NCBI RefSeq assembly: GCF_000226095.1
Contig: NC_016473.1
Coordinates: 4,278,001-4,342,000, forward strand
Direction: 5' to 3'
DNA: 64,000 bases
Source of the DNA: Thermothelomyces thermophilus ATCC 42464
Lineage: Eukaryota > Ascomycota > Sordariomycetes > Sordariales > Chaetomiaceae
Position numbers and translations under genes: made by a program
Part shown: positions 26,184-46,233 of the stretch, piece after piece
Numbering within the stretch: position 1 is the first letter of the stretch
Layout: each line of letters begins with the position of its first letter
Notes under the pieces: generated by a model
The model's database searches: none
The model's input: only the letters and a program-made list of their open reading frames with translations
Told to the model about the DNA's origin: nothing

Positions 26184-26679
26184 TTACCTTCCCTTAGTCC
26201 CCGCTATGCCATCCCCCTTCTTTGCCGCGTCCTTCCGCGGCAACACCTCGACCTGCCGACTCAACAGCTTTCTCAGCTCGGGTGTGATTACCTTTTCCGG
26301 CTGCTTCTGCTGCTCTTGCTGCTGCTGCTGCTGCTGCTGCGGTTGCGCGGTGGGCGACTTGCTGCTCGTGTCCCTGCCGCCACTGGCACCAGCTTGGGCT
26401 CCCTGGCCGGAAGCAGGACCGGGCCCAGACGAAGAAGCCTGCTCGAGGACCGGCCGCTGCCTGGGCGCGGGGAAGTTACCCTTCTTGTCGACGGCGTCCA
26501 CGAGCCGGCGGAAGCGCTTGAAGAGGGCCTCGGCGCGGATGAGGGTCGAGTCGAGGTCGATCGTGCTGGAGAGCTCGTTGACTGTGTGGTGTTTTGAAAG
26601 GACGACGTCAGATTTGATGCGTGGTAATAAACCACACAGGGAGGTGTGAAAAGGGGGATAAAGGAAGGGGGGGGGGGGG

Positions 26680-26739
<60 letters not shown>

Positions 26740-29205
26740 TACCGTACTTCAGGACCTCGTCAAAGTGCTTGAGATGCGTCATGATCACGTCCCTGTGCTT
26801 CTCGAGGATGGCGAGGGCCACAAACAGGTGGAAGCTGCTGGTCAGGTAGTCGGTCCAGAGCACCTCCCAGAGATGCAGCACGTCGGGCCAGTCGAACTCG
26901 CGCTTGTACCAGACGAGCAGCATGCGGAAGAAGAAGAAGAAGTTGGTGCTGTCGGCCGACTCGAGGTGGGCGTACAGCTTGGGATCCATGAACTGGACGA
27001 GGTGGTCTAGAGCGCGCAGCTGCGAGCGCATCCCCGACTGGTCCCGCAAGAAGTTGCGCTCCATGCGGTCCATGAAGGACTTGAAAGCCCAGAAGGCCAG
27101 CGCGTCGTCCTGGAGGACCGCGTAGATGGGCGCGAGCAGGTCCGACATGCCCTGGACGTAGCCCAGGTCACGGTTGTACTCGTTGTACGTGAGGAGCATG
27201 TCTTTGAGCTGCTCCATGTGCACGTTGGTGCCGACGCTGGCAAAGGGAGAGTCCGGGTCCGGGTGAGGGATGTCTTCGCCGGCGAAGATGGGGACGTTGC
27301 GGTCGGTGCGATGAACATCTTTCTCTGAAGAAGGTGTGTTGTTTAGTCGCCACTCGTGTGGGGAAGGAGATGAAAATAAAGTCAAATAAACTCACCGATG
27401 CGTCCTCGCTCTTCCCGCCACCACTCGCCCTCTTCGCCCTCTCCGCCCCTGTCGATCTGACGCTCCCACCAGGCGCCCTTGAGCTTGATATAGGCGTCTC
27501 GGAGGGAGGCGGCCAGGGCCTTGCGCTCGTCGGCCGTGCTGTACCACTCGTACACGCCGAGGAGGAACAGCCAGGCCTCCTTGCGGACGCCGTCGTCCGG
27601 GTCGAGGCCGCCGTGGAAGACGCGCTCCTTGACCTCGTCCACCGTGACGGACAAGCGCCCCGTCCGCGGGTCGAAGAACGAGTTCCACTCCTTGAGGGTG
27701 ACGGGCTTCCGGAGCTGCTCGAGCGTCAGGCTGCTGGTGCTGTCGAGCAGCTCGAACTCGCCCACGTCCGTGTCCTCGAGTTCCATGACCTCCCGGGCGG
27801 TCCATATCCTCTGGTTCCTGTCGCGCTCGCTCTGCTCGGCGATGCCCATGGCCCACCGCGCCAAATAGATGCGGGCGCTGTCGAACTCCTCCTGCAGCGT
27901 CTGCACCTCCGGGTTCCGCAGCAGCCTCCGCACCTGCGGCGGCAGGCGCGGGTTGTCCAGCACGTCCTGCGCGGCCTGGCGCGTGAAGGTGGTCACCCTG
28001 CTGAACTTCTCCATGATGTTCCACCCGGTCTCCTTGACAAACTTCATGAACGGATCCATCCCGCCATCCCTACCCCCCCCGGAGCCACCACCACCAGCAG
28101 CAGCAGCAGAAGGAGCAGTACGGGAGGCCGCCGCCCTCGAAGCGCCCGGCACACCCACGCCCCTGCCGCCACCGCCGACGGCGGTCTTGACGTTGGCGCC
28201 GACGCCGCTCTTGCCGCCGAACGCGAGGCTGTCCTCCTCGCTGGGCTCGACCAGGTACACGTTGGGCTCGACGGCGCTCCGCTCGACGGTGACGTAGCGC
28301 TTCAGCCAGCGCAGGACTTCGTCGCCGCCCCAGAACATCTCGCCGGTCTCGTCGAAGGGGTCGAAGGAGTCCCTGGCGCGGCGGTGCTTCTGCAGCATGG
28401 TGCTCTGGCACTCGTTGTCGTGGAAGAAGAGGGGCGGGAACGAGTCGCCGGCGCGCGAGTTGATGATGACGCTGCCGTACCACCAGCCGACGCTGGGCGG
28501 GCGGACGAGGAGCGAGTAGATGGCCGAGAGGGGCACGGCGAAGGCGTAATGGCCGACGCCGGCGGTGGCCGGGTGGCTGGTGACGGTCGGCGGCGGCGGG
28601 ACGAGGTAGGACTGCTTGGGCGGCGAGTCGGTGTCGCAGAGGTCGACCTTGACGTAGATGGACGCGGCGTCGCCGAGCTGGGACTCGGGGACCCAGGCTA
28701 GGAGGAGGTCGGAGGAAACCGGGTGGACGCGGGAGGAGGGATGGCCGCTCCTGCTGCTGGTGTTGGCGGGACGGTCATTGTTGTCGTTATAGTTGTTGTT
28801 GCTGGTGCGGCAGCTCGTCGAGATATGAGAGGAAGGAGGGTGCTTCTGCTGCAGCAGGGCAATGTAGCCGGGGATGTTGTCGCGCGCCGAAGGGGTCGGG
28901 TGGACGTAGACCTTGGACTTGGAAAAGAGCAGCTTGACGCCGCGGCCGGTCTCGGTATGGGTGATGGTGTCGTAGTCGCCTTCCTCGTCGTCGCTCATGG
29001 CGTAGAAGCTGCCGGCGGGAGAGGGGGGGCGAGGAGGATGGGAGATGATGGAGAAGGAAGAAGCGGCTGTCGTGGTTGTTATCGGCTGCGACGATGACGG
29101 CGGCGGCTGTTCCGAATTTGGATTCGAATTCGGGAGAGTCGACTCGGATGCCCTTGGCGGCGACAACGGTGACGACGACGACGTCATGTTCGAGATGCGC
29201 GTCAT
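26184..29205 (-). CDS. GYP7: Gyp7-type Rab GTPase-activating protein (TBC domain)
   Basis: Model complement(join(26184..26581,26743..27324,27396..29205)), 929 residues. The N-terminal domain (about 70-330, including GVKLLFSKSKVYVHPTPSARDN) is the Gyp7 N-terminal lipid/PH-like region. The TBC domain starts around residue 505 at FFDPRTGRL, has the arginine finger in IEKDVHRTDR (split by intron 1), the glutamine finger in YVQGMSDLLAPIY, and ends near 790. The tail is Gln-rich, with an eight-glutamine run from a CAG repeat. Known role: accelerates GTP hydrolysis by Ypt7/Rab7 on endosomes and vacuoles. The first ATG of the open frame (29205) is used; the next Met, six residues on, is an alternative. 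Intron 2 carries a 58-bp homopolymer tract. Confidence 0.93.
26667..26737. repeat. G13/A58 homopolymer pair inside a GYP7 intron
   Basis: Thirteen G (26667-26679) are followed by 58 A (26680-26737) on the plus strand. In transcript sense this is a T58 tract starting right after the GTAAG donor, then C13. Confidence 0.85.
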
Positions 29206-29923
29206 GTCGTCGGTCGCTCGCAACTCAAACTCCCGCCAGTTGTTCCGAGGTTGGCAATTGCTCGTTGCCCTGCAGACAACCTCGCGCTGCGTGTCTGGCG
29301 TGGTGGGAAGCGTCTGCGGCGCATGCCTCGTGCAGGTCGTGCGTTGGTGTCAGCTGGGCCTGGAACCAATGCATGCATGTGCTGATGAGGTGTTAACAGC
29401 CTGGGGAAGCCCCGCGGTTGATGATGCGGGTGTGGAGGGGAGGGGAGAGGATGCTGGATGAGGTAGCAGTACCCGCTCAACATGCATAAACTTGCGGAGA
29501 ATTAAGTATCTCTACGTGCTATCGGCAAGCCACGGCCAAAACTTCGCCCCTCTTGACGCGTACGCCGCCGAAAGGCGCCATCGTCGTCATCTCGGCCTCA
29601 ACACACGCGAGCTTGTCGATGACAACCTCAGCACGCTAGATCTGATTTTCGTTAGTTCGAAAAAAAAAAAAAAAATAGGGCGGTCATTATCCTCGTTACA
29701 CAGACAGACGTCAGCATAGGCGCTGGTCGATTATTAACGGTCCTGTTCTCTTTTCATGTTTCCGATCCTGCCTGTCGTGCTCCCGTAGTAGTGGGCCTCA
29801 AAGCGCTGTCGTGCTGGCCAGCCAGACATCCAAATATATCCAGACACAAAACAAAGAAGCGCCAATTCCAAAAAGTCCCATATCTCCCCCCCCTTTCCCC
29901 ACCCCAAGTGCATGCTCATATCG
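29206..29923. other. Intergenic region (GYP7 promoter side)
   Basis: The stretch between GYP7 and the 3' end of the Mso1-like gene, both on the minus strand. It contains an A-tract at about 29661-29675. No gene is recognised. Confidence 0.55.
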
Positions 29924-30757
29924 TTACCGTGGCCGTGGTCCGCTAGGCAACCCCGACCTAGGGCCGCTCGGCAGTCCGTAGCTCCTTCCCCCCCCTTGGC
30001 CCCCAACGCCTCCCGCTCCCGAGCTAGAATAACTCGGCCCTCCATCCGACGACCACGGTGCGTTCGCGCTCATCACCGGCCGCTCCGTGTGTCTCGTGCC
30101 GGGCAACCCGTCACTCCCCCCGGCACCCCCCTGACCGCTCCAAGCCCACCGGTTCGCCGACGGTTGCGCCGGTGGCGGTTGCTGCTGCCCCGGCGGCTGG
30201 AACGGGCCTCCTCCCGAGCCGGGGCTCGTCGTCCTCGAGCCGCCCCAGAGCCTCTGCTTGAGCTTCTCCTGCGCGCTCACCCCGGACGACCCGGTCGGGG
30301 CCGGGCTGACCGTGCCCGGCCCCCCGCTCCCGGCCGCCTGGTAGCTCCCCGCGCGCTGCCCGGCATCGCCTCCGCCAGCGAAAGGATTCCGGCTGTTCAC
30401 GAACGGCCCCGGCCGCTGCGCTTGCGCCTGCTGCCCTGCGCTGTTGCTGTTGCTATTGCTGTCCTCCCACAGGCTGCTCAACCCCCCGCCGGCCGCACCG
30501 GTGCTGCTGCCGTACCTGCTGCCCCCGCCCACCCCCTGGGCCGCGAAGACGGGCTGCTGCGGCGGCGGCGCCTTGGGATCGGGCGGCAGCCAGCTGGGCA
30601 GCGGCTGGCCCTTCTCGGCGTAGTAGCCGCGCAGGACGCGGCAGACGTGCGTATCATCCTCGGTGTCGCCGTCCGACTCGCCGCCAAAGTAGGTGCGCTG
30701 CAGCTTGGAGATGTTGGAGGATGCGTTGGTGAGCAGGCCTTTGTACCATGAGGCCAT
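29924..30757 (-). CDS. MSO1: Mso1-type Sec1-binding protein
   Basis: A 277-residue single-exon gene. Residues 1-60 carry the Sec1-binding domain of Mso1: an N-terminal amphipathic stretch WYKGLLTNASSNISKLQRTYF, then DGDTEDDTHVCRVLRGYYAEKG and LPSWLPPDPKAP. The remaining 215 residues are low-complexity Gly/Ser/Pro/Gln sequence with a short conserved-looking EKLKQRLWGG. Known for yeast Mso1: binds the SM protein Sec1 and takes part in SNARE-mediated fusion of exocytic vesicles. The start is the only ATG ahead of the domain. The symbol is by domain homology only; the disordered C-terminus cannot be compared. Confidence 0.85.
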   Translation of the reverse strand: MASWYKGLLTNASSNISKLQRTYFGGESDGDTEDDTHVCRVLRGYYAEKGQPLPSWLPPDPKAPPPQQPVFAAQGVGGGSRYGSSTGAAGGGLSSLWEDSNSNSNSAGQQAQAQRPGPFVNSRNPFAGGGDAGQRAGSYQAAGSGGPGTVSPAPTGSSGVSAQEKLKQRLWGGSRTTSPGSGGGPFQPPGQQQPPPAQPSANRWAWSGQGGAGGSDGLPGTRHTERPVMSANAPWSSDGGPSYSSSGAGGVGGQGGGRSYGLPSGPRSGLPSGPRPR

Positions 30758-31226
30758 GGTGGGCGACTTTTTTTTCTTCTTCTTCTTCTTTTCCTGCTTC
30801 TTTATCCTCCTATTTTTTGGTGGCCAATTGGGAACAACCTTCTTTTCGTTCTTTCCTTCCTTCGTTTGTTGTTTGGTTGGTGACTTGGAGGTGCGAGAGA
30901 GCGGCGGTGTCGAGCGATGATCGGCGATTTGGCGACTGAGCAGTGGGCGAAGGTCGAGGAATCGAGATTCAGAGAGGGATGCGGAATGTGTTTCCGCAAA
31001 GAAAATAAGTACAGTCTAGAGCGCAACAGAATCGGTGCTTCGATCCGTGAGCTAGCACCTATCTGCTGCTTGCGCTCGACGATGCGTGCTGACGCCGCCG
31101 CTGCTGTGGTGGGGGGTTTGATGCAAGATGGTATCCGTAGTTTGTGGTGCTCCCGCTGCAAGAGGCGCCCCATTCGTGGGCCTGATGCCGAAACATGGCT
31201 CTCCGTAATTTCTGGTATGCCGTAGT

Positions 31227-31235
31227 TACTCCGTA
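31227..31235 (-). repeat. Dispersed TACGGAGTA motif copy
   Basis: Exact copy on the minus strand, 38 bp before the full palindromic copy. Confidence 0.6.
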
Positions 31236-31272
31236 CAGAACATGTAAAATACAATACATGCACTACCTTACC

Positions 31273-31288
31273 TACTCCGTACGGAGTA
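31273..31288. repeat. Perfect 16-bp palindrome TACTCCGTACGGAGTA
   Basis: Two inverted copies of TACGGAGTA sharing their central bases make a perfect palindrome. It is the most complete member of the motif family in the window. Confidence 0.8.
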
Positions 31289-31896
31289 CATTCGGGGGAA
31301 TCCATTCATGTGTAGAGTCCTCCATGCCTACATGATCCGACGACAAGTGGGCAACAGGTTCATTTTACCACATTCCTTGGTCTTCCGGCCTTTGGGGCGT
31401 TGGTGATATGCTCACTCTGACAGGGTCGCTTGGTATGGAGCCTCGATTTTTGGCCCTCCGTAAGAGGTACTTGAATGCTCTCGTTTTACCCAGCTGTTGC
31501 CTCGATTTCAGGACATCTTGACGCCCATGACATGCAAGGTCAAGGGCTTGCGTTCGTTCGGCAATAGTGGTGAAATTGCGGGCATAGTAGCTTCCTTGGG
31601 CATCAGAGTATAGCTCCGACACCAAGATTGAAAGGGAGCTCGACGGAGACGCAATCCAGCCGAAGGATTACTCGCTTGAGTCACCGTACGCCCTTGTAGG
31701 CCGATCACAAAGATCACGATGATGAGTGACCCCTCAAGCCCCCCATCCCGGTCGTGCTGGAGTAGATGCTGACTTGGGACACGGTCTTAGCAGCTGAACC
31801 CTACCTTGATCTCGCATTTGAGGTGTATCAGCTTAGTCCTGCGCCCCTCGCATGAGGACGACGACCGAAAAATCATACATAACGCCCCTGCGCACT

Positions 31897-33159
31897 CTAA
31901 AATGCGAGTAGTTTTGCCCTCTCCGTCTCCCTCTCCACTTCGATCTCCTTCCGTTTCCGCGCCGCAGGCTTGACCGCGCGGCCTCTCTTCCGCTTGTCGC
32001 CGGCCTTCTTCTTCTTCTTGACCTCCTCCTCGTCGTCGTCCTCCTCACTGTCCTCGTCGTCGTCGTCGTCGCCATCATCATCGTCATCCTCGGCGTCGTC
32101 TTCGTCGCTCCCCAGCCAGTCCTCGATATCGGCCAGCTCTTCGTCGTCGCTCTCGTCAAAGTCCGACACGTACTCCACCGCGCCGTCCTCTTCCTCCTCG
32201 TCCTCCTCTTCCGCTTCTTTCTCGAGTTCCGCCTCAGACTCGCCCTCCTCCCCGTCCTCCTCGATCCCCTTGTCCATGTCCTTATCCCGAACTCCCTCGC
32301 CCTCCGCCTCAAGAGCATTCAACACCTTCTTCCAGATGTTGGCGTTACAGTTGAGCGGCATGTCGCCATACGCGCCCTGCCGCAGGCGCTCGAGCAGCTC
32401 CCGCTCAATGGTGCGCTCGAGCTTGGCGGCCGCCAGCGCTTTGCGCTCGCGTGCCTCCTCGCGGTGCTTGATCTTTGGCGCCATCTTGGGCACCAGCCTC
32501 TCGCCCAACCGCGCCTCCTCGGCCGCTATCCTGCGCATCCGCGCCGCCACCTGGACGAGCCGCGTCAGGCGCTGCTTGCACTTGTGGATGAGGAACTTGG
32601 GGAAGAATTGCAGCCGGCTCTCGATCTGCGCGAGCGCTTCTTGGTAGTTCTTGGAAAGCTTGATCTTCTCCCACCATTTGGACGGCATGTGCGATCGTTC
32701 AATCTGAGGAACGGAGAAGAGTCTTAGGTTAGAGATTGCCACACTCTAGGAACTGTCTCACTCTGCGAAGGGGCAGGAAGGGAATGCGGGAACGCACCGT
32801 CTTTATGTAGAGATATATTGTCCCTTTCGGCGATGTCCTGACCGTCGCATACCGGCTGTTGGCGAGAGGGCAACTTTGGCGGTTGCACAAACCGCTAACC
32901 TGTTCCGTCGTAAGCAAAACGGCCACGCAGCACCGGAGAGGCGACGTACAGAGTATTCATTTCGGCAAAAGTTATTTCCCTTGTTTGTTCTAGGCCGAGT
33001 TAGGATCAGCAGACGACACAAGAGGAGCAACAAGCAATTCTTACTTGAGCTTGAAGGCACAAAACTGTTCTGCAGAGTTGAATTAGCATGGAGCGCTTGG
33101 TCGAGTTGGGCAATCGAGTGCTCACGGTTTATAATCTGCCAGACGATTTCGTCAGACAT
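31897..33159 (-). CDS. MAK16: Ribosome-biogenesis protein Mak16
   Basis: Model complement(join(31897..32703,32798..32899,32950..32989,33045..33069,33126..33159)), 335 residues in five exons. The first four exons together encode only 67 residues: [20 protein letters not shown], then [33 protein letters not shown] and YLYIKT, a near-perfect Mak16 N-terminus with conserved cysteines. Exon 5 continues [20 protein letters not shown] and the [15 protein letters not shown] motif. The C-terminal third is extremely acidic (Asp/Glu runs) and ends in a Lys/Arg-rich nuclear signal. Known role: a nucleolar factor needed for early 60S pre-ribosome assembly and 25S/5.8S rRNA maturation. All four introns have GT...AG borders. 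Confidence 0.96.
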
Positions 33160-33570
33160 CGTGCAATGTTGGCGGCAGGCGTATCAAAATAGGCTTGGCT
33201 CCAGGTCCGCCTCGGAAGAGGGGTGAGATAGTCTCGAAGAGAAGCCGTTCTTCTCTATGATAAATAACTTGGAGGGGCTGCAAACGCGATGCTGAAAAAA
33301 AGCTCTGGGCTCTCGAAGTTTTGGTCCAGGGATTGGCCAGTGCATGCGCAATCTTGTCTTATCGGAGTTGGGCCAGTTCTAGCCAATTAAAGCTTACTCT
33401 GTTTACTTGGCAGTACAGTTGTTACTGTAATCCGTACTCTGTACGGAATACATACACACTCTAACTCGTACAGGAGCTGCTGATGCGTCGAGCACGGCGC
33501 GTACTTCACGGACGCTGCGCCAGTCGAAACACCTTGCACCTGCACAGCTTATAGTTGTGTACCAAAGTCA
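33160..33570. other. Divergent promoter region (MAK16 / MSS1)
   Basis: A 411-bp divergent intergenic region between two ribosome- and tRNA-related genes. It contains TAATCCGTA (33428-33436) followed by the variant TACGGAATA in inverted orientation (33442-33450). Confidence 0.6.
33428..33450. repeat. Inverted TACGGATTA-type motif pair
   Basis: TAATCCGTA and the one-base variant TACGGAATA face each other with a 5-bp spacer in a divergent promoter region. Confidence 0.6.
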
Positions 33571-35431
33571 ATGTTCCGATATGCGCTGAGGAGCGTCTTG
33601 AGACAGCAGCCGCGGGGATTTGGAGCCGCACCTGCGCTGCTTCGGCTCCAATTACGGCATCATCCTCGCCATCGCATTCACAGTCTGAGCAGCAGTGGCT
33701 TACCGACGATCGATGAGGCTCCTTTCATCAACAACGATACCATTTACGCCCTGTCATCGGGATCTGGAAGGGCAGGCATAGCCGTGATTCGAATATCCGG
33801 CCCTGATTGTCTTAATGTGTGTTACCTTCAACCGGTTTTTTTCTTTTCCTTTTTTACTTATTTGCCTGATTAACAGAGATCTGTAGGTATACCGTGGACT
33901 GTGTCCAAGTCGGGCTGTGCCCAAGCCAAGGTTTGCCGCAGTGAGGACACTCTTTGAACCCGGGCCGGTCGATGGGTCTGGCGCGAATGTTGTCGACTCT
34001 GATGCGCTTGTTCTGTACTTCCCTGGGCCCAAAACAGTCACTGGAGAAGACGTGCTTGAGCTCCACGTTCATGGAGGTCCCGCAACCGTCAAGGCCGCTC
34101 TCTCCGCCATCCGGAAGTGCTCTTCATCCGGGAAGATACGCTACGCTGAACCGGGAGAATTCACGAAGCGTGCCTTCTACAATGGCCGATTGGATCTCGC
34201 CCAGGTCGAGTCCCTCGGCGATACGCTTGCTGCCCAGACCGAGCAGCAACGCCGTGCAGCGGTTCGAGGCAACTCGGGCATCCTGGGCAAGACGTACGAC
34301 AGCTGGCGCGAGCAGTTGTTGCTCGCCCGCGGCGAGATCGAGGCTCTGATCGACTTTTCCGAGGACCAGCATTTCGACCAGTCGCCTTCCGAGCTCCTGG
34401 CCAACGTTACTAGGCTGGTCGAGGATATCGTTCGACAAATCCAAGTGCACAAGCTCGGCAACCAACGGAGTGAACTGCTCCGGAACGGGATCCGCATAGC
34501 CCTCCTCGGTCCGCCCAACGCTGGGAAGAGTTCGCTGATGAACCTGATCGTCGGCCGAGAAGCCTCGATCGTCTCAGACGAGGCAGGTACAACCAGAGAT
34601 ATTGTCGAGGCCAGTCTTGATATACGGGGGTACCTTTGCTCCTTCGCAGATACTGCTGGAATCCGGACGAAGACATCGGAACCCATGGGTCACCACGACG
34701 GAACCTCGGCTTCCCCCATTGGCGCCATTGAGGAGGAAGGCATTCGGAGAGCGCGACAGAAAGCCCTGGATTCAGATGTCATCATCGTCCTGGCATCTGT
34801 CGAGGCGACGGAGTCATCCGGCGCCGCCTGGATAAGTTATGATGCTGAGACTCTCAGATTAGCAGCCGGTGCGAAGCAGTGCCTTGTGGCGATCAATAAG
34901 ACCGACGTCGTCAGCCCGGAGTTGCTCAAGCAGCTCGTCCAAGATTTCAAGTCGTCCGCGCTGGCGGATGTCGACGGCCTACGCGATGTCGAGCCGCTGA
35001 CCATCTCCTGCAAGGCTGCGGCCTCTCCGGCAGCTGCAGGGCTGACTGATGCAGGCGGCGTAGGTGCACTCACCGAAGCGCTGACCCAAGCATTTTCGAA
35101 CCTGACCTCGTTGCCGGATGACATGCAGCATCTCCTCGGTGTTAGCGAGCGACAAAATCAACTGCTTTCCGAGTGCGAACGGCACCTGGAAGATTTCATG
35201 ACTGAAGCTGAAAGATCCGACTCTGGTGATGATGAGCCGGATGTCGTCCTGGCCGCTGAGCACTTGCGACTCGCCGCCCTCCGGTTGGCCTCTATCACCG
35301 GGCGTGGCGAGTCTGGAGACGTGGAAGAGGTTTTGGGTGTCATCTTCGAAAAGTGAGTCAACTTGAGTGCGATCTCTTGGGCACATTCCCGCTAACTTAA
35401 CAACTGAGCAAGATTCTGTGTCGGGAAATAA
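33571..35431 (+). CDS. MSS1: Mitochondrial tRNA-modification GTPase MSS1/TrmE
   Basis: Model join(33571..33816,33887..35352,35413..35431), 576 residues. The N-terminus is Arg-rich and lacks acidic residues for about 45 residues, like a mitochondrial presequence. The TrmE N-terminal folate-binding domain follows (DTIYALSSGSGRAGIAVIRISGP, ... VHGGPATVKA, PGEFTKRAFYNGRLDLAQVE), then a G domain with P-loop GPPNAGKSS near 290 and DTAGIR near 330. A 19-bp last exon supplies the conserved C-terminal FCVGK, which carries the Cys essential in the MnmE family. Without that intron the frame stops after IFEK. Known role: with Mto1/GidA it installs the carboxymethylaminomethyl-type group at wobble U34 of mitochondrial tRNAs. 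Confidence 0.95.
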
Positions 35432-35864
35432 TGATGATGTAACAGTAGTAGTACAGTACATACAAGCAACGTTGGACCTTCCGACCGTTCCCGGCGAAAA
35501 GTCCACGCATCTCAAGATCATCAAGTCAGCATCCGAACGCCCCTCCGTCTAGTGGCCCCTTCCGAGCCTGAAGTCTATATCGTCGAGCCCTGGAATTCGG
35601 CCACCTAACACCCGCCACACCGATTGGGCTTGCGCCCACCGTCAACCAGTCTATATGCCATAGTCGCACAGTCTATTGCCGTACCAACTCCTTTGCGATG
35701 CGCGCTCAAAATGATGAGAGCCCCCAGCAGTGCGCCGGGAAAGGAAGAGGGAAAGAAAGGAAAAGAAGAAGAGATGGCATGACCCTCGTCCTCCGTGAGC
35801 CACCGGCAACTCAAGAATTAAAAGCCTGAAACGAAAACGATGAAAGAGAGGTCAAAAGGATGAT
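35432..35864. other. Convergent intergenic region
   Basis: 433 bp between the stop codons of MSS1 and the repeat-protein gene. No recognisable feature apart from purine-rich sequence at about 35740-35775. Confidence 0.55.
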
Positions 35865-36311
35865 CTAGTGATGGTTGTCATCCTCGTCGTCCTTGTCATC
35901 TCTGGTCGACCTGTCAGTTCCCAACCCGACTTTGCTTCTCACTTTTTTCTTTTCCTTTCCCCGAAGGGAAGAGGGAGATGGTCGTCTGGGGCCGACTCAC
36001 TTGTTGTAGCCAGAACGGCCACGGTTGACAAACTGGTTCTCCTCATCATCATCCGAGTTGCCCCTAGGTTCCAGCATTAGTGCCCTCTTCTCTTTGCAAA
36101 ATCTGCTCAGAGGAGACACTACTCACTTGTTGTAGCCGGAACGGCCAAAGTTGGCAAACTTGTTCTCGTCGTCGTCGTCCGAGTTGCTCCTGGGTTGCGG
36201 TGTTAATCTCTCGGTCGTGAGGATGTTGTCGCTGGGGGTTACTCACTTGTTGTAGCCGGAGCGGCCACGGTTGACGATGGAGCTGGTGGCGAAGAAACCG
36301 GTGACAGCCAT
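35865..36311 (-). CDS. 78-residue repeat protein made of duplicated symmetric exons (function unknown)
   Basis: Model complement(join(35865..35910,36001..36063,36127..36189,36247..36311)), 78 residues in four exons. Exons 1-3 each end with the same coding unit, G-R-S-G-Y-N-K, cut at the same point (phase 2, inside the Lys codon) and followed by the same GTGAGT donor. Exons 2 and 3 are both exactly 63 bp and read (K)SNSDDDDENKFANF- and (K)GNSDDDEENQFVNR- before GRSGYN. Exon 4 supplies STRDDKDDEDDNHH. The three introns are 57, 63 and 90 bp. There is no signal peptide, membrane segment or dibasic Kex2 site, so a secreted processed peptide is unlikely; a small, soluble, acidic repeat protein is the neutral description. 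I do not recognise the family. A good TATA box lies about 235 bp upstream and suggests real, possibly strong, transcription. Confidence 0.85.
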
Positions 36312-36479
36312 TGTGAATGTTTTACTTGGAATTGGATGTTCGACTGCTTCGACTGCTGTTGTATGAGGGTTGGTTGGGAAGGTGGAAGGCTTGAGTGGTG
36401 GGAGCTGGTGCGAGAGCTGCGGTAGAGGTTGCTGGTGAGTGAAGGTTTGAAGCTGATCTGCGTGATCTGCTGGTGTGTT

Positions 36480-36504
36480 GATGATGATGATGATGATGAT
36501 GATG
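36480..36504. repeat. (GAT)n microsatellite in the leader of the repeat-protein gene
   Basis: Eight GAT units between the TATA box and the start codon of the minus-strand gene, so probably in or next to its 5' UTR. Confidence 0.7.
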
Positions 36505-36544
36505 CTGATGGACACAGGTCTTCTCCCCCGGATCTGAGCAGGTC

Positions 36545-36552
36545 TTATATAG
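36545..36552 (-). promoter_or_regulatory. Candidate TATA box for the repeat-protein gene
   Basis: CTATATAA on the minus strand lies about 235 bp upstream of the ATG at 36311. The intervening leader is pyrimidine-mixed and free of in-frame coding sequence. Confidence 0.5.
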
Positions 36553-38936
36553 GCCGACGGCCGTGAAGATGCCATGTCTCCTGTTGACCTATGTCTCGTG
36601 CCATCACCAATCCGCTTTCGAGCAGCCTTGTCGGCGAAGGCGGCGATGCCTCAGGGCTCCCGAGCTACGGATGACCTAAGCCTGATCACGCCCATCCCCA
36701 CAACGCAAAGACACTTCGAGATCCTACCAGCAGGGGCATCTCAAGACGAGGGTGTTACAGAGCACGATACGTATGCACATACATGCAACCACGCCCAAGG
36801 TGTGACTGGAGTTAGTAGCATCCGAATGGGTTTCCCAATCTGGTCGAGGACGAGTGGCGTGGGCCTTTGCAGGTGCACTTTGACACGACCAAAAGCACGC
36901 AAAGCAACAGAGCACTTCCGGATACCGAACCCTCCTTGGATGTTACGACACGGCCAATACGGCCTCTTGGAGGGGTGTGAAGAACTGTGCAGCGCCCCTA
37001 AGCCGCGAGATCCGGACGTTTGGCTTTTGGCTATGCACCGTCTCCGATCGAGGTTCTGTCGGGCAGGCCAAAGACGGCGCTCCGGGGGCTGAGTCTGGCC
37101 TGGACTTGGACTTGGTTTGTATGCCTGGGGCTGCTTCCCGTAAGGCTGAGCCGCACTACTGGGTCAAAAGATGGATGGATGCCTGGCGCCCTGTGTAAGC
37201 ACCAGGTAGGGGTCGGACAAGTCGCTTTGGCGGAGCCGCCCGCTTGCGGCACGAACAAGCGACCATTGGACCAGTAGAAGAAATTCTCCCTCCCACCAAT
37301 CCGGTTCCGATTCTCACGCGCCTTGCTGACAAAGTCGAGGACTAGCCACCCTACTTTTTTCTATTTATTTTTTTTTAAAAAAAATAAAAGTTTCTTTTCA
37401 TGGAACAGAAGGTCTTTTTGCAAGGGCCTTCAGCTCAACGCCTAGTGAACCCTTCTCATCCTGGTGTGACAGGGTTGATATCGGAATTTGCAGTTCATCA
37501 ACTTTCGCATCGAACGATCACGGCAAGCCCGGCCTCGGGGTTTGTGGTAGATGCACCGTCTCTAGAGAGCAGGCGGTCCCGGAGGATCCGCAAGGGCCCG
37601 GAACCCCCCTTCCCGGTGCAAGGGCTCTGCGGCTCGGCCATCGCACGTGTCGCAACCAACCAAACACGGCGCAAACGGATTGACTCAACCAGGACTTCTT
37701 CTTTCGCCGGTTGGTGGGCAGATCCTTGTGTACTTTGTACGTACATAATCCGTGCAACCATGTACGTCACATCTTACTAGTACGCTCTGCGATGGAATAA
37801 GCGCGATTGCGTACCTGGCCGGACCGGAAATGGAAGGTACTCAAGGGGGGGCTATGGTAACCAACGTGATGTCTCTCTTCGGGCCGTTGAGCCGTGAGGA
37901 AATACGCGCCAGGATTCCTGGCGATCTGTTTGTTTGTCTGGACCGTTCGCCTGGTTCCTGGTCGTCCCTCGTGGAAGTTTCGCCGGTGTGTAACTTGGAC
38001 CAGATGCAGCTCAACGGCCCTGTGTTGCAGCGGTGCCGCATGCCACGCGCTAGGCAGCGGAGACATCGGATGACCATGTGCATGCACTTACATGGTAGGT
38101 AACGTCTATACAGATTATACAGATACGGGTCTGTGTAATGTACCACCTACCCGAGCAAGCGCCCACGCATGCTCTTCCAGGCCAACCCCGTACGGCGGTT
38201 CGCTATTGCCGAGCCTCATATTACACACTCACCGACGAGACTCATGAGCGGTGTGAGATGTCATGAAGGCGCTGCGGTCGATGCTGCTCGTCGACCTGTT
38301 GCTACAATGCCACGAGCGTGCTTGCTGACTAGGAGGGAGGCCTCATGGCCTTCGTCAAGTGCATCGGGAGGATCCGGCGGAGCGGCACGGTTGTGGCTAA
38401 CCCAGGACCGCGGGTTGATGCCGGTTCTCCTTCCGCCCCCGGGGAGTTGTCCCGGGCACGACGATCCAGCAAGGGGTTACGTCCCTCCCGCGTCTAACTA
38501 AACCTTAGCGCTCGCTGCATACATCCCGAGACTTACGTACTACTATTGTACATATATACAGACAGGTAACATATGTGCACACCGTGCTGTGGTGGTGTAA
38601 CAGTATAACGATGTGGTTTTAGACACGAAGATACGTCTTTAGTTGTAGACTTATCTTTAGGACCCCAAGGCTTTTCAGAGTATGTACCACAGCTATCGGC
38701 GCTTCTACGGCTCTCTCTATAGCCACCCGGCCGTATGTGACACCGGGTCGGTAATCAGAGAACTAACTTTTGTAATGGAGGGAGGGACGGAAGGTATCAC
38801 TTAACTGGTGCCGCCACGTGCCGGCCGGCCATTTTCGAAACCGACAGAATGGCGAGCTGAAGCACTATGCCGTCCCCTGCCTCGTCCTACCCTCCATTAA
38901 CTTCTGCACACTTGATACACTAGAGACAGAAACACA

Positions 38937-38940
<4 letters not shown>

Positions 38941-38976
<36 letters not shown>
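38941..38976. repeat. (CA)18 microsatellite
   Basis: An uninterrupted CA run of 36 bp, flanked on both sides by imperfect ACACA sequence. Confidence 0.9.
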
Positions 38977-38981
<5 letters not shown>

Positions 38982-41736
38982 ACGTGCGCGCGCATATGTG
39001 TAGTCACGCGAATCCTATGCCGCCGGGGTTGTCTGAATGCTTGACGTGGAGGCGCACTCTAGCCCCGAGATCAAAGAGGGGCCGCATCTTGTTAGGCCTT
39101 TCTTGTTGCAGGCTGCCTACCGTTAATAAGGGAGACTGGAACAAATACAATCTTTTCGCCTGTTAGCGTTGCTGCAGGTCCCTCTCATATCTCTTCTTAG
39201 ATTGGCTAACGGAAGGATGCCGACCCGAAACTATTTAGCGTGCGTTACTCATCAACCTTCATTTTTGTTTCGAGACTAAGTGGCTCGGTCTATCCGCCAT
39301 AACGACTTTGGACTACCTCGTTTAGTCGCGCCTTAGAGTTGTACGGCACTCTGCGAGTTGTTAGGGGCCGAGGTTTGACTCATCGCCGAACTCTACTCTT
39401 ATCACCGAAACTCTCCTCTTTTGATCTTTCTCACAAAAAAAAAAAAAAAAAAAAAAACCACGATTGGGCAATTCGTTCATTCCGCCACTTCTGTCTTTCC
39501 ATTCGCCGGTCACCAAGAATCCTTACTCTGACATGCGTCGCTCGCTCAGTCACGCCGTCGTTCGATAGCGTGCTCCTCTTCGGCACCCATGCGAACCTGA
39601 AGCTCGACTTCTCCTTCGGGATGACATGTCAGCAAACGAGATGAGTGTGCTGCGAGGCCTCAGAACAAGCGTTAGAGTTGCAGTCTCAGATTCGGCATCC
39701 AAAGGACTCACTTACACGCGATGTCTATCATTCAGCCCTGCCAAGGCACTTTACCACTTCTGGAAGCCGGTCCAAGGTTGTTGTCATCATATTGTCCGGA
39801 TCTGGTAACGTTCATTGATCATAACCGCAGAGACCTCGCAGCTACCCCATCCTCAGCATGTCAGACCCCGACTAACACCCCTCGGTTCCCCTGGTTGCCG
39901 CCCTCACGCTAATGCAAGGTTCTATATCCAAAACCCCAAGAAGGCAAATTGATGAACAGTTCCTGCTCACGGGAGGGGTGACTCGGGTGTGTTCTCGCCA
40001 ACCTCCAAGCTGCCGCTATCAGCGTCTAGTTCTTCGTTGATTCGATTTATCGTGGGAGATTGACTGAACCTGCAAAGAGACTCGGTTGCCGAACACGGGC
40101 AGTGGAAATAATACGTCTTCTACGGTCTAAAGGAGACGTCCTTACAAATAACAGATGTAGCGACGCTGCTTCGTACTTTTGTCATCATAACGGTTGAAGA
40201 TGACGGTCTGGTGGGAGCAGCATCGAGCCTTCGAGGATTGGACTGGTTGCGTACGTGGGACCATTTTCGAATTTTGGTATTTTGGCAAGCACGGAGGCTT
40301 GATGCCAGAACACCATCGCCAAAACCCCTATGGCATTCCCTCCCTCCTTGAACAGTCAGATGTCTTGTTTTGTAGACATGGCCGATCTGCATGGTTCTTT
40401 TTCTTTCCCTATTTATTCTCTTTATCTTTGTCCACCCTCTTTTGCCCTTGTCCCACGCAAATCGGCCCGCCTTGTAAACTTCAAGTCATCACCTGACGAC
40501 TTCTCGTACTGGACTTCATCTTATAGTGAACAAATAAGGCTCACCACATCCGTGTTGTGCCTGTCTCATCTCACTTCCTGATGACTATTAGCCACAGCTG
40601 CCATACAAGTCAAAGCCACAAAACCGCTCTCCGCCACTCCAACCTTGTACAGTGCATTAAGGCCGTGTGTGAAACCCTCACACGGCTATGGAGAGCTCGG
40701 GCCCTGCAGCAAAGTTTCCACCACCCAAAGCGGCTCCCTTCGTCCCTGATTGAGCCTCAATTCGCAAAGCGGAAGCTCAATTTACTTCTTTCCCCAGAGT
40801 CGCGCGCCTTTGACCCCGTGGCCGGATGATGGCCAGTGTTTGTTGTTGACCAACTCCAAGTCACTCATTGAAAGAGAAACCCCCCTTGTTCACTTCTTTC
40901 GCCCTTTTTACGTCAGTTTGACCGTTCCCGCTTAACTATCCGACCTAACCTGCGTTAACACTTTTGTTCGCGTGGGCCCTCCGCATTACCCATTGCGCGC
41001 GCCAGTTTCCCAGTGCAGGCTGGTCGGTTTCTTCCAGTGCTCCACCACCAGAGTTCTGGCCCTCGCAAGGCCGCAGACGGGAGACCCCAGTTTCCCAGGT
41101 TCCCAGGCCTCAGCCGCGCGGGAGAGAGAGAGAGAGAGCAGAGAACTTGCTGCGATTGTTGTGGGACCCATCATCGGTCTGGTTAGCCCTTCACAATGCC
41201 GAGTAAGTCCAACAGCGGTTTCTTCTCTCTTTCCTATTCTAGCTCCCTCCTTTATTGTCACTGCCCCGCCCTGTCTACACCAGGGCAGCCGCCACTCTTC
41301 ACACGCCCGCCAGATCATTTTTGGTTCGCCCCGTGCTGCTCGAGCTGTTTGCGACAAAAGGGGGGAGGAGGGGTAACCAGCGCATTTCGCCGCACGGGTC
41401 CGCTCCCTCGTCAGTTTGTTTCCAACGGCCAGGAACTATCCCTCTCTGGGCCTTCAAACCGCCGAACAACAACGCCCAACGGCCTACATTTTTTTTTTTT
41501 TTTTTTTGCCTCGCCATCCCCCCCCGCCAGCGACTTGCATGCTTGCCGACGAACGGATTCAGCGGGGACGCCTTCCTCGGAGTGACTGGCCGTGCGGAGG
41601 AATTGGCGACTCGGTGGTGGCATTCTGAGCTGCGGGAGCTGGGTGGACGCCCCGATCCTCGCTGGATTCAAACGCAACTCCCGCCTATTCGCTCTTCTTC
41701 TCTGCGACGCCTCTGATTGATATACTAACGAGCAAA

Positions 41737-44196
41737 ATGGAAGACCTCATCGGGGACCCCTTCATCTACAACCAGGCTGTGTACGTGACTCAATTCTTCC
41801 GAACCTACCCTCTTCCCCCTCCGCCCCTCGCCTTATCCCCGCGGATCCCAGGCCGCTGGCTGACTTCTTCTTTGCTCCCAGAGCCCATCCTCTGAGCGAA
41901 CTTGAAGACACTGCGATCGCCGTCGACGCTACATACTACCTCCAGCTGCATCTCGATGTCCTCCCGGGCAACGAGCCCCTCCTCCCGGCCCTCGGTGGCC
42001 TGACGGGGATCCAGGGCCGTATCGAAAACGAATTGGATCATTGGAAGGCCCATAAGATCATCCCTTTCTTCATCTTCGATGGCCAGTCCGTGGCTGGCCA
42101 AGACGAGGCGGCGGTCAAACGCGGCCTAGCCAACTGCCTGAAGTTGGACATTTCGTGGGACCTGTACTTCAATGGTCGCGCCGACGAAGCCGTGTCCGCC
42201 TTCGGCCAGAGCACAAGTACGTTCTGTCATGTGTGCCCGCCGACTGCACCGTCTGGCTAACTCTCGGTAGGCGCCTTTCCCGCCAGGGCCCTCTATCCCC
42301 TTCTGCAGTCCATCTTGAAAAAGCGCGGCCTGCACTTCCTTGTCCCTCCGTTCAACGCCTCTGCGCAGGTGAGCCCGCCCGCCCCGGCCTGACCATTTGA
42401 CGGTCGTCTAATCTCGAGAGCAGATCGCATACTTTGACCTGATCGACTCGGACCAGTGTGCCGGAGTGATGGGCTCCTCGGAGCTCCTGCTCTATCCGAT
42501 CCGAGACTGCGTCATCCGCACCATCGACTGGGAGAACAACCTGGTCTATGCAGTTTCGAAGAAACACATCCTCAAGGCTCTGAATGTCAGCGAATCCCTC
42601 TTCGTCGACGCGTTCCTGATGACGGGGACGTCCTTCCTTCCGCCTTTTCCGCCCCTGGCCGACCAGACCATCATCAAGACACAGCCGCACACGGTAGCTG
42701 ATGCGGTTAACATGCTGCGAACGGCAGAGAAGTCGGTGACGCTGGTCTGCAGCAGCTTCCAAGACATCCTGAAGAGCCAGGATCCCGATTGGTTGGACAA
42801 GTACCGCAAAGCCCGCATGGTCGTTGACCACTTCGTTTACATCGCCGAGAACGGCGAAGTCAAGGTTCACGACTACGAGCACTTGACCAACGATAATCAC
42901 GAGTATCTCGGCCTCCAGCTCCCCTCGGAGCTCTTTCATTACCTGAACACTGGCCTCATCGGTCCGCGATTCCTCACATGGATCACTCACGGCCAGTTGC
43001 AGGTCTTGCCAACCCTTGACGGGGTCGCTTCGGAAGAGTACAAGAAGTTGGTGACGACCCAGTCCGTCCGAATCAAGGAGGCTGCCCTAAGCCTGGTCAT
43101 ACCTCGCCTGAATCGAGGCATTGGATATAAGAACATCAGCATGAAGGTCTGGTACGACCGAAACTACTCCTCCACGGTCTGGGATCGCCAGGAGGCTAAA
43201 GCCAACTTTGGCCCGCAAGTCGACAGCTGGAACGTCCGGGAGGTGTCCATCACGGAGCATTTCCCACAGTTCGCCCACGGCTCCATCTTCTCTGAGGTTC
43301 TTGCGCTCAAGAATGCCAAGTTTGTCCCCCTGACGCGCTCGAACCCAAAGGAGAAATTGAGGGGCGTTGAGTCTGGTGCGCTCATCAAGTCGATTTGCCT
43401 CTGGCGGTTCCTGCACGTCCGGGGTTACGTCGATGACCAACATGAACTCACCAACTGGGGCTCTGCACTCGCCACTGCCCTGACCGCCCTCGAGCCGACG
43501 GTCAACAAGTATCCCGATTTCCCGCACCTATTCGAGTCTGTTCTTGTCGCGCTCGAGTTGGTCCGCTTCGAGCTCCTCAACGCCAGAAACCCGCATGAGG
43601 AGCTGCGCGGCCTTCCTCTAAACGGGACCGAGACCGACCAAGCGAGTCTCCTGTTAATTAGCAGATGTGCCAGCCTGCTGAAGCTCAGGCACCAGGCGAA
43701 TGGCTACACCGGGCCCCTCAGCAAGAACCTACTCGCTTTCCGCTCGCTCGTGTCCGAGGTTCGGTCGGCCGACCGCGATCTTATCGAGGCGATCCTCGCC
43801 CACATGTTTATGTACGCCCAGGCGAAGCGGCAGCGGGACGATAGCTGGGAGCTGAGCCATCAGTATGTATCCAGGTGCCTAACGGCTTTGACAGGTGGAC
43901 GCTAACCGGTTCATAGGCTTCCCTTCCTCTACGATCCGGATGTTGCTCTCGGAATCGCCGTCAAGACGTATCTTGACGACCTCCTGCCGGACGACCCGCA
44001 CAAGGAGCAGAAGCTGAAGCAGTTCCCCGGCGTGTATGTGCCGTACGCCGTGTCCTTCAGCGAAGATTTCGGCATTGCCTGCAACTTTTTCGATGCCCTC
44101 TATGCTGGCATCAAGCAACTGGGCGCCAATGATATCCCTGCTGTTGACCGCACCGCCTGGGACAACGCGGCTCAGTACCTCGCCACCAGGCGATAG
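41737..44196 (+). CDS. MKT1: Mkt1 post-transcriptional regulator (XPG-like fold)
   Basis: Model join(41737..41780,41882..42216,42271..42368,42424..43862,43917..44196), 731 residues in five exons. The XPG-N-like region has AIAVDATYYLQLHL and KIIPFFIFDGQS; the XPG-I-like region has FLVPPFNASAQIAYFDLIDSDQCAGVMGSSELLLY; the Mkt1-specific middle and C-terminal domains follow, ending FDALYAGIKQL. The fold is nuclease-like, but Mkt1 proteins are not known as active nucleases. Known for yeast: Mkt1 works with Pbp1 to regulate translation or stability of mRNAs such as HO. An alternative first exon, ATGCCGA at 41196-41202 with a GTAAGT donor spliced to 41744, gives a protein of the same length whose first three residues differ at positions 2 and 3 (MPN instead of MED). 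Confidence 0.93.
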
Positions 44197-44936
44197 AGCG
44201 ACTTAGATGTAACTGTGGTCGTATGAACAGGTCACTCGAGCCATCGCTTGATAGCGCGTGTAACGGCACCGCAGATCGGGGCTCCCTAAATCCATCCTCC
44301 TTGGCACAGAAGAAAAGCCAAGCAGATAGCCAGCTTTGCCGGAAGTAGTTGATGAACTGCGGCATCAAAAATCATGACAAGATTCTAAGGTTCTCGTTCA
44401 GATCGTGTTTTGTGCGTAAGTTGAGTGATTGTCGAGTGCATGACACGTAACCACCACCCTTTGGAACACTGGTTGCCGAAGGGCCACAACACACATCCGG
44501 AAGCATACACACGCATACCCCGTTTATTTAGGTAAAGAGCCCGCCTGGGCACGAGTTGGGACCGCCGAAACAAGAACATATTGAATCCTTTACAATTGCC
44601 CCTGTCGGCAAATGATTAAGTTTTGTAAAATGCCCAGCTCTCCAACTGGCACATGGATATCTTGCGCCGCCCGTCCGTCGTCCATGCTCATCCCATCCGC
44701 CCACTGCGCCCTGAAGATTTAGCATCCCGTTCGTAGAAAAGTCTCGTCAACCCGTTGCACCTTGTCCAGAATTCGGCAGGAAGGATCCAAGGTGCTCGCT
44801 CGCGTTTCCCGCTTCTCGTCGTCGCCTGCGGGTTGGAGTTTCGCCATTCTTTTTTTTGCCCTCGCCTCTCCAACTTTCAGCCCTAATTCAGCAACACGGC
44901 GCCTCTGCCTGTTTTGTGCTGTGCTGGTTTGTAGGT
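44197..44936. other. Convergent intergenic region (MKT1 / SSS1)
   Basis: 0.74 kb between convergent genes. No repeat or RNA feature is recognised. Confidence 0.5.
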
Positions 44937-45460
44937 TTACGCGCCGCCGACGAGGATGTTGTTCAGGGGAACATGGACTAGCGAATGGGTTAGCCTTGGC
45001 AAGTTCCTCAACCCGTCGTCCAATGGATTCCGGATCGATCGGATGGATCTGGATCGAGAGGAGATTGGACTGAACCGGGCGGAGGGAAGGGGGCGAGGGG
45101 GGAAGACCGTACTGAGCTTGACGAAGTACCCGACAGCGCCCATGACTGTAGCGTGGCCTGTTAGCACGCGCGCACAAACATATACTTGTCTTCCAAGACT
45201 GGGAAGGGGGAGTAAGGGCAAACGTACCGAGGAAACCGACGCCCACGGCCTGGGAGATCTTGATGAACTCGCGGCGGTCGGCTGTTTCTAGCGTGTCAGT
45301 GATTTTGTACCTCACAAAGCATGATGTCGCTTGCGAGCACAGTTTTTGTACAATCCGGAGGGAGGGAAGACGTACGCTTCTGCGCCCGGTTAATGAATTG
45401 GACGCCGTCCTTGATGAACTCGCGCGGCACGTCGAGGAGCTCTTGGATTTGGTCGGCCAT
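44937..45460 (-). CDS. SSS1: Sec61 translocon gamma subunit Sss1
   Basis: Model complement(join(44937..44977,45113..45145,45228..45281,45376..45460)), 70 residues in four exons, the longest only 85 bp. The assembled protein begins MADQIQELLDVPREFIKDG, continues FINRAQKPDRREFIKISQAVG and ends with one membrane segment and FVKLIHVPLNNILVGGA, all canonical SecE/Sec61-gamma signatures. Each junction keeps frame, and family conservation confirms every one. Known role: the essential small tail-anchored subunit that clamps the Sec61 protein-conducting channel in the ER membrane. Introns are 94, 82 and 135 bp, so non-coding sequence exceeds coding sequence. Confidence 0.96.
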
Positions 45461-45919
45461 TGTGACTTTGTGCGGAAGGAAAGGAAAGTGCTGGTAGAGA
45501 GGAAGGAAAAGAAAGGAGAAAGGTGGGGTGATGGCCAGCTGGTTCGAGACGACGAAAGTGGTTGTGTGTGGTCTCGCGAGAATGAAAGCTCGGGGGGAGA
45601 GAGTTACCGTCGCGTGAATTGGAGAGCTGTCAATTCGCTGAACCCTTGGCGCTGCCAAACGTGCCACATCGCCTGAACAAGTCAAACAGGTCCAGGCCTC
45701 AGCTTGGGGGCGCCGTCCAGAGTGGCTCGTGCGTCAATTTCAGGGGCTGAGGTGAGGCGGGAGCTGGACGGAAAATGACCAGGCTTGGTGGCTTGCCCCC
45801 CCGGAGTGTGGAGCCCCGCCTGGGCCGGGTTCCGTCTGGGAAGTCAGGCTGGTTAGTTATTGGAACCGACCCACAAATCCAGACAAGCGGGTTACTCAAA
45901 CTTATCGACCAAAGTGATG

Positions 45920-45958
45920 TACGGATTACTTCTATCCTACTTCCATACTTACGGAATA
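45920..45958. repeat. TACGGATTA motif plus TACGGAATA variant
   Basis: An exact motif at 45920-45928 and a one-base variant at 45950-45958, followed about 18 bp later by a degenerate inverted copy (TGATCCGTA). Confidence 0.6.
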
Positions 45959-46233
45959 CTACGCTACGCAATATGTGATCCGTATATTCACTACGGACAA
46001 ATACTTGACTGCTCGAGTGCTCTACTGGAATGCGACTAGACTGAAAATCGACTTGATGGCATTCACCACCCTAGTCTCCAACCGACAAGCTGGATCGCTC
46101 GCACCTGATCTTGGTCAGACCGCATAGCATTATCATCTTGGAACATTTCCATACTTTTTTTTTTAAAAAAAAGTGCGGGCTTGAGGACGATGTGGCTTGC
46201 CCTGTACAGCTTCTACATCAGTGTGCAAAGATG

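Follow-up and report, generated by a model that had tools for sequence, protein, structure and literature searches.

Hydrophilins are small, glycine-rich proteins, which in a screen of Alternaria brassicicola were selected by a GRAVY below -1 and a glycine content of at least 8%; 210 of 12,456 Alternaria proteins passed both composition cut-offs, and the definition of Garay-Arroyo et al, as cited in that work, adds induction by water stress (PMC6730492). A hydrophilic, dehydrin-like fungal protein, TbDHN1, is described for Tuber borchii (PMC1550403). Repeats within a gene can arise by tandem duplication of phase-matched exons, a general mechanism that leaves adjacent homologous exons of equal length and equal phase with duplicated splice signals. 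All of these features are found in the locus analysed here, which is in its case a four-exon fungal gene of about 75 codons; among the titles retrieved by a literature search on tandem exon duplication and fungi, none was on a fungal gene.

The locus lies in a 64,000-nt window (bases 4278001–4342000 of contig 2) of the genome of Thermothelomyces (Myceliophthora) thermophilus ATCC 42464, a thermophilic saprotroph among the Sordariomycetes. The small gene runs on the minus strand from 36311 to 35865 of the window, and its anatomy of four exons and three introns, as predicted from the sequence, is as follows:

Exon 1, 36247..36311, minus strand: 65 nt; start codon, MAVTGFFATSSIVNRGRSGYN plus 2 nt of the next codon; ends in GRSGYN
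Intron 1, 36190..36246, minus strand: 57 nt; GTGAGT ... TTAAC ... CAG; branch A 13 nt from the 3' end
Exon 2, 36127..36189, minus strand: 63 nt; K-SNSDDDDENKFANFGRSGYN
Intron 2, 36064..36126, minus strand: 63 nt; GTGAGT ... CTAAT ... TAG; branch A 13 nt from the 3' end
Exon 3, 36001..36063, minus strand: 63 nt; K-GNSDDDEENQFVNRGRSGYN; identical to exon 2 at 53 of 63 nt
Intron 3, 35902..36000, minus strand: 99 nt with the favoured acceptor at 35902; an in-frame AG at 35911 would give 90 nt
Exon 4, 35865..35901 (35865..35910 with the other acceptor), minus strand: K-DDKDDEDDNHH, stop TAG

With the three introns removed, the 75-residue reading is MAVTGFFATSSIVNRGRSGYN / K-SNSDDDDENKFANFGRSGYN / K-GNSDDDEENQFVNRGRSGYN / K-DDKDDEDDNHH. 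The ATG of exon 1 stands in the context TTCACAATGGCT. All three donors read CAA/GTGAGT and all three junctions are in phase 2, being cut after the second base of a codon. The initial annotation had placed GRSGYN at the ends of exons 1–3, with phase 2 and GTGAGT donors, and had given exons 2 and 3 a length of 63 bp; both descriptions were borne out on the minus strand, to which we add that exon 1 contains exactly 21 complete codons.

A length of 78 residues had been proposed for the product, and here our reading differs. Exon 4 is preceded by two in-frame acceptors 9 nt apart (35902 and 35911). The sole branch-site match in intron 3, CTGAC, has its A 12 nt from the intron end if 35902 is used, as against 3 nt for 35911, the acceptor that the longer protein implies. 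Because the spacing at 35902 resembles that of introns 1 and 2, the predicted protein most likely has 75 residues. In Trichoderma longibrachiatum the distance from branch to acceptor peaks at 11–14 nt (16.5 ± 7.0, median 15), and the distances quoted there for Aspergillus nidulans and Neurospora crassa are 15 and 20 (PMC4324775). Since very short distances are used by some hemiascomycete yeasts (PMC2483917), we regard 35911 as disfavoured and no more.

The proposal that an exon cassette had been duplicated with matching phases was supported by the comparison of exons 2 and 3, which are adjacent and homologous, equal in length, both in phase 2 and furnished with common donors. Their 10 differences over 63 positions are distributed 3, 2 and 5 by codon position. 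The repeat in the DNA is longer than the exon, extending over 85 nt at 82% identity, through six donor bases on one side and 16 nt into the upstream intron on the other. As a control, ungapped 63-mers were compared at all lags of 80–199 throughout the window (7,656,000 placements by the script's count, places within 150 bases being merged). The exon 2/3 pair was the strongest such repeat (54/63), and a score of at least 46/63 was reached at this place alone; the exon repeat pattern exceeds chance. Taken from the acceptor at 35902, exon 4 aligns with the acidic half of exons 2 and 3 at 19 of 34 nt to each. As its repeat score was equalled in 7% of 20,000 codon shuffles (p = 0.07), this alignment weakly suggests, and no more, that exon 4 is what is left of the acidic half of another copy. 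The last 20 nt of introns 1 and 2 agree at 12 positions and the first 20 nt at 9, the latter count including the common GTGAGT. Beyond the splice signals they have no clear likeness, suggesting either an old duplication or introns that have drifted. Another possibility is that the repeat was at first intronless and gained its introns later.

Judged from its sequence, this small fungal gene is probably genuine. Donors, branch sites and acceptors are consensus-like, and the four exons lie in one frame that, once spliced, has no premature stop. Codon use is clearly frame-specific, with a log-ratio score of +0.104 per codon in frame compared with -0.774 and -0.971 in the shifted frames. As yardsticks we used leave-one-out scores over whole pieces, with frames taken from stop to stop and some including intron or UTR sequence. 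Scores ranged from -0.29 to +0.208 in five pieces of EF2- and Hsp70-type genes, for which good expression is expected, and from -0.459 to +0.205 in 14 other frames, MnmE included. When 75-codon stretches were compared, the small gene was within the range of two of the five well-expressed pieces (EF2a, SSAb), just below two (SSAa, SSB) and above one (EF2b); stretches scoring above it were found in four of the 14 ordinary frames (L020, L021, L026, L042). The yardstick discriminates poorly between well-expressed and ordinary frames, and the codon score is a weak pointer to high expression. That these are chance exons in non-coding DNA, or the remains of a decayed gene, we consider very improbable, given the strongest 63-base repeat at those lags in the window, the consistent phases and splice signals, and a spliced, stop-free frame with codon use of its own. 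An RNA explanation gained nothing from Rfam, which gave no match at the gathering threshold across 33000–43000, or from a tRNA search, which gave none in 30000–46000 (bacterial-code setting). Folding of the unspliced RNA was slightly more favourable than that of shuffled sequences (z = -1.59), 7 of 100 of which did at least as well.

Upstream of the coding region two elements were recognised:

TATA box (TATATAA), 36545..36551, minus strand: 240 nt upstream of the ATG
Presumed 5' leader, 36312..36520, minus strand: 209 nt, no ATG; 39% C, 32% A, 11% G

The leader start assumes that transcription begins about 30 nt below the TATA box. Just below this box, the presumed leader contains a trinucleotide run at 36479–36510 (TGA x 10.7 on the plus strand, CAT-type on the gene strand), the length of which could vary from strain to strain. 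The 1089 upstream bases contain, by raw count, four AGGGG/CCCCT sites. An upstream in-frame extension (ORF 36243–36575) was also considered; we infer that it is to be rejected because the TATA box falls within it.

The surroundings of the small gene contain the following frames:

MAK16, 31900–32742, minus strand: Pfam match
MnmE/TrmE, 33917–35356, plus strand: Pfam match; convergent neighbour
ORF, 36574–37092, plus strand: no Pfam match
ORF, 41255–41716, plus strand: 150 aa or more
MKT1, 42466–43905, plus strand: Pfam match; upstream of the small gene
Frame 27385–29223, neighbour of ORF 26288–27385: PH_RBD match (Pfam)

The stretch upstream of the small gene (36575–42465) measures at most about 5.9 kb up to the MKT1 open frame, the true start of which may lie further up, and holds only two ORFs of 150 aa or more, plus one antisense to MKT1. 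It is possibly a long regulatory region, or a place of unannotated small or non-coding genes. GC skew turns negative in 38500–42500, reaching -0.19 at 40500–41499, and GC content is about 0.49–0.51 from 38500 to 41000. Elsewhere in the window, ORF 26288–27385 contains a long run of phenylalanines encoded by a poly-T/poly-A tract, which probably belongs to an intron or UTR that the ORF listing did not separate from coding sequence; the part before the run resembles what we take to be the catalytic part of a Rab-GAP.

No family had been recognised for the protein initially, and database searches led to the same result, with no credible match in Pfam, NCBIfam or PDB. Against Pfam-A up to E 10, in a scan whose HMMER filters discard most weak matches, only SPT2 appeared (E 0.74, 10.8 bits against a cutoff of 24). 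NCBIfam gave a single antiporter match that is not credible (E 0.057, 13.1 bits against a cutoff of 165), and PDB gave none at E up to 10. The small gene is single copy in its own genome (38,744,216 bases, 7 contigs), where the 78-residue query produced four matches at E up to 10, all four at the gene's own place. A GRSGYN-like DNA pattern occurred there at 12 places, compared with 11 for the reversed control. Three of the 12 are the small gene, and among the remaining nine only L011 carries an exact GRSGYN; no second copy or acidic spacer was found in roughly 66 residues. Searches for relatives covered viral or prokaryotic collections, where blanks are uninformative about fungi. In viral contigs none of 74 pattern stretches was confirmed, and a second search gave no matches; in prokaryotic genome contigs none of 173 was confirmed, and a second search gave nine pattern matches, all bacterial by title, with no second GRSGYN and no SDDDDEN-like spacer over about 90 residues. 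One of these nine (L055) has NRGRSGYNK in an open stretch, nine residues identical to the small gene, a likeness that we take as coincidence because the search pattern itself selects most of the peptide. In the literature, a search for the string GRSGYN gave no match; the string GRSGY occurs in PMC2789693. The initial annotation had called the protein the best candidate in the window for an undescribed one, and in that respect it is still no more than a candidate.

We then compared the repeat units within the gene. GRSGYN is unchanged in all three copies, its codons differing only synonymously. In their last eight complete codons, exons 1 and 3 show two changes, both synonymous, and exon 2 differs from either by one synonymous and one nonsynonymous codon; over their entire length, exons 2 and 3 are separated by four synonymous and five nonsynonymous codon changes. 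GRSGYN thus looks constrained and the spacer not, small as the numbers are. The main rival to a hydrophilin-like protein builds on this pattern and sees a multivalent protein of short linear motifs, in which each GRSGYN copy would contact one specific partner, the acidic spacers would control this interaction, phosphorylation being one way, and stress protection would not be the function. The identity of the hexapeptide and the varying spacers of exons 2 and 3 are what this would predict, but neither a partner nor a known motif came to light, the Pfam search yielding SPT2 alone and far below its cutoff, and the sample consists of three copies within one gene; we regard the partner-binding repeat as possible but doubtful. 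NSDDDDE and NSDDDEE fit the CK2 site S-x-x-D/E.

The composition of the protein points to the hydrophilins. The 75-residue form has a GRAVY of -1.69, 10.7% glycine, a pI of 4.5 and a net charge of -7, and the 78-residue form a GRAVY of -1.70 and 10.3% glycine, so that both forms lie below a GRAVY of -1 and above 8% glycine; the original definition is said to use 6% glycine. Basic-aromatic blocks (GRSGYNK) alternate with acidic ones (SDDDDEN) in the repeat, and charge over seven residues swings from +2 to -5 along the 75-residue chain. The mean hydropathy of this form (0.313 against a Uversky bound of 0.447) puts it on the disordered side, by charge-hydropathy position only. Small size, richness in glycine, a GRAVY below -1 and a disordered-side composition are common to the predicted protein and the hydrophilins described (PMC6730492), but such composition is weak evidence of function because 210 Alternaria proteins pass the same cut-offs. 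The likeness to TbDHN1 (PMC1550403) concerns hydrophilic composition only. In Pfam-A, up to E 10, the predicted protein matched no model of the CON6, CON10, HSP12, LEA or dehydrin families. HSP12, CON6, CON10, LEA and dehydrin-type families are represented in Pfam-A.

The absence of a secretion signal, asserted in the initial annotation, agrees with hydropathy, which shows no signal-like stretch: at the N-terminus the 9-residue mean is at most 1.5, and basic residues come after, not before, the most hydrophobic part. It bears on the idea that the protein is cut into several small peptides, in the manner of a dikaritin-type RiPP or a pheromone-like precursor, with a GRSGYN-containing core set free from every repeat. 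Tandem repeats, an identical tyrosine-containing core and variable spacers would suit such a precursor, but a dikaritin depends on a signal, on Kex2 sites and on UstYa. Besides the missing signal-like stretch, the predicted protein contains no dibasic KR or RR, and of at least seven exon-level matches in a UstYa search the sole one on the same contig is about 0.95 Mb away; none of seven lies within 900 kb, among the matches listed. We consider a peptide precursor extremely improbable. Import into mitochondria, with the acid-free first 25 residues (Arg15, Arg17, Lys22) acting as presequence, seems improbable too. The first acidic residue is Asp26, and the convergent neighbour is by family MnmE, which acts in fungal mitochondria, but the N-terminal segment contains a GRSGYNK unit, just as the internal repeats do, and a targeting signal is not needed to account for it.

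The phases have consequences for splicing. As calculated earlier for the 78-residue form, skipping exon 2, exon 3 or both keeps the frame and gives 57, 57 and 36 aa; from the 75-residue form, 54 and 33 aa follow by subtraction. Of 10034 alternative splicing events in Trichoderma longibrachiatum, 9369 left an intron in place (PMC4324775). Fungi are also documented to skip exons, as in rtnA of Aspergillus niger and, to judge from a section heading, in that of Neurospora crassa (PMC6616335). Isoforms of the small gene that lack an exon are arithmetically possible, but they are probably minor because retention of introns dominates alternative splicing in fungi. Retention of any intron leads to an immediate TGA, because phase 2 followed by GTGAGT reads xxG TGA, and the translations give 22, 43 or 64 residues ending in GRSGYNK. 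These products are a mechanical outcome of phase and donor and require no special function.

Taken together, we put at about even the chance that the gene grew by tandem duplication of an exon cassette and that its product is a 75-residue, intracellular, disordered, hydrophilin-like protein with a protective role. The duplicated cassette would comprise the 3' end of an intron, the 63-nt exon and its donor, and each copy would enlarge the gene by a 21-residue unit made of an acidic, CK2-site-like block (NSDDDDEN) and a basic-aromatic block (VNRGRSGYNK). Expression, location, disorder and protective function are what we infer for such a product. Its flexible, alternately charged blocks may form a water-retaining shield during drying, heat or sporulation, and under the same conditions their alternation could allow weak multivalent binding of other macromolecules. 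An extension of the hydrophilin-like reading, which we consider unlikely, is that of an exon-counted disordered protein, in which duplication or loss of the symmetric cassette sets the number of GRSGYN units, so that valency and protective or condensing strength would vary among strains, species and perhaps splice forms.

As it stands, this is one more small gene, likely of a stress-protein type, without a known family and mainly of value for annotation; it is a tidy example of growth by exon copying, not a startling one. If exon number varies among relatives, it would provide a very compact natural series for the tuning of a disordered protein by repeat number, and a chance to watch exon duplication in a fungus.
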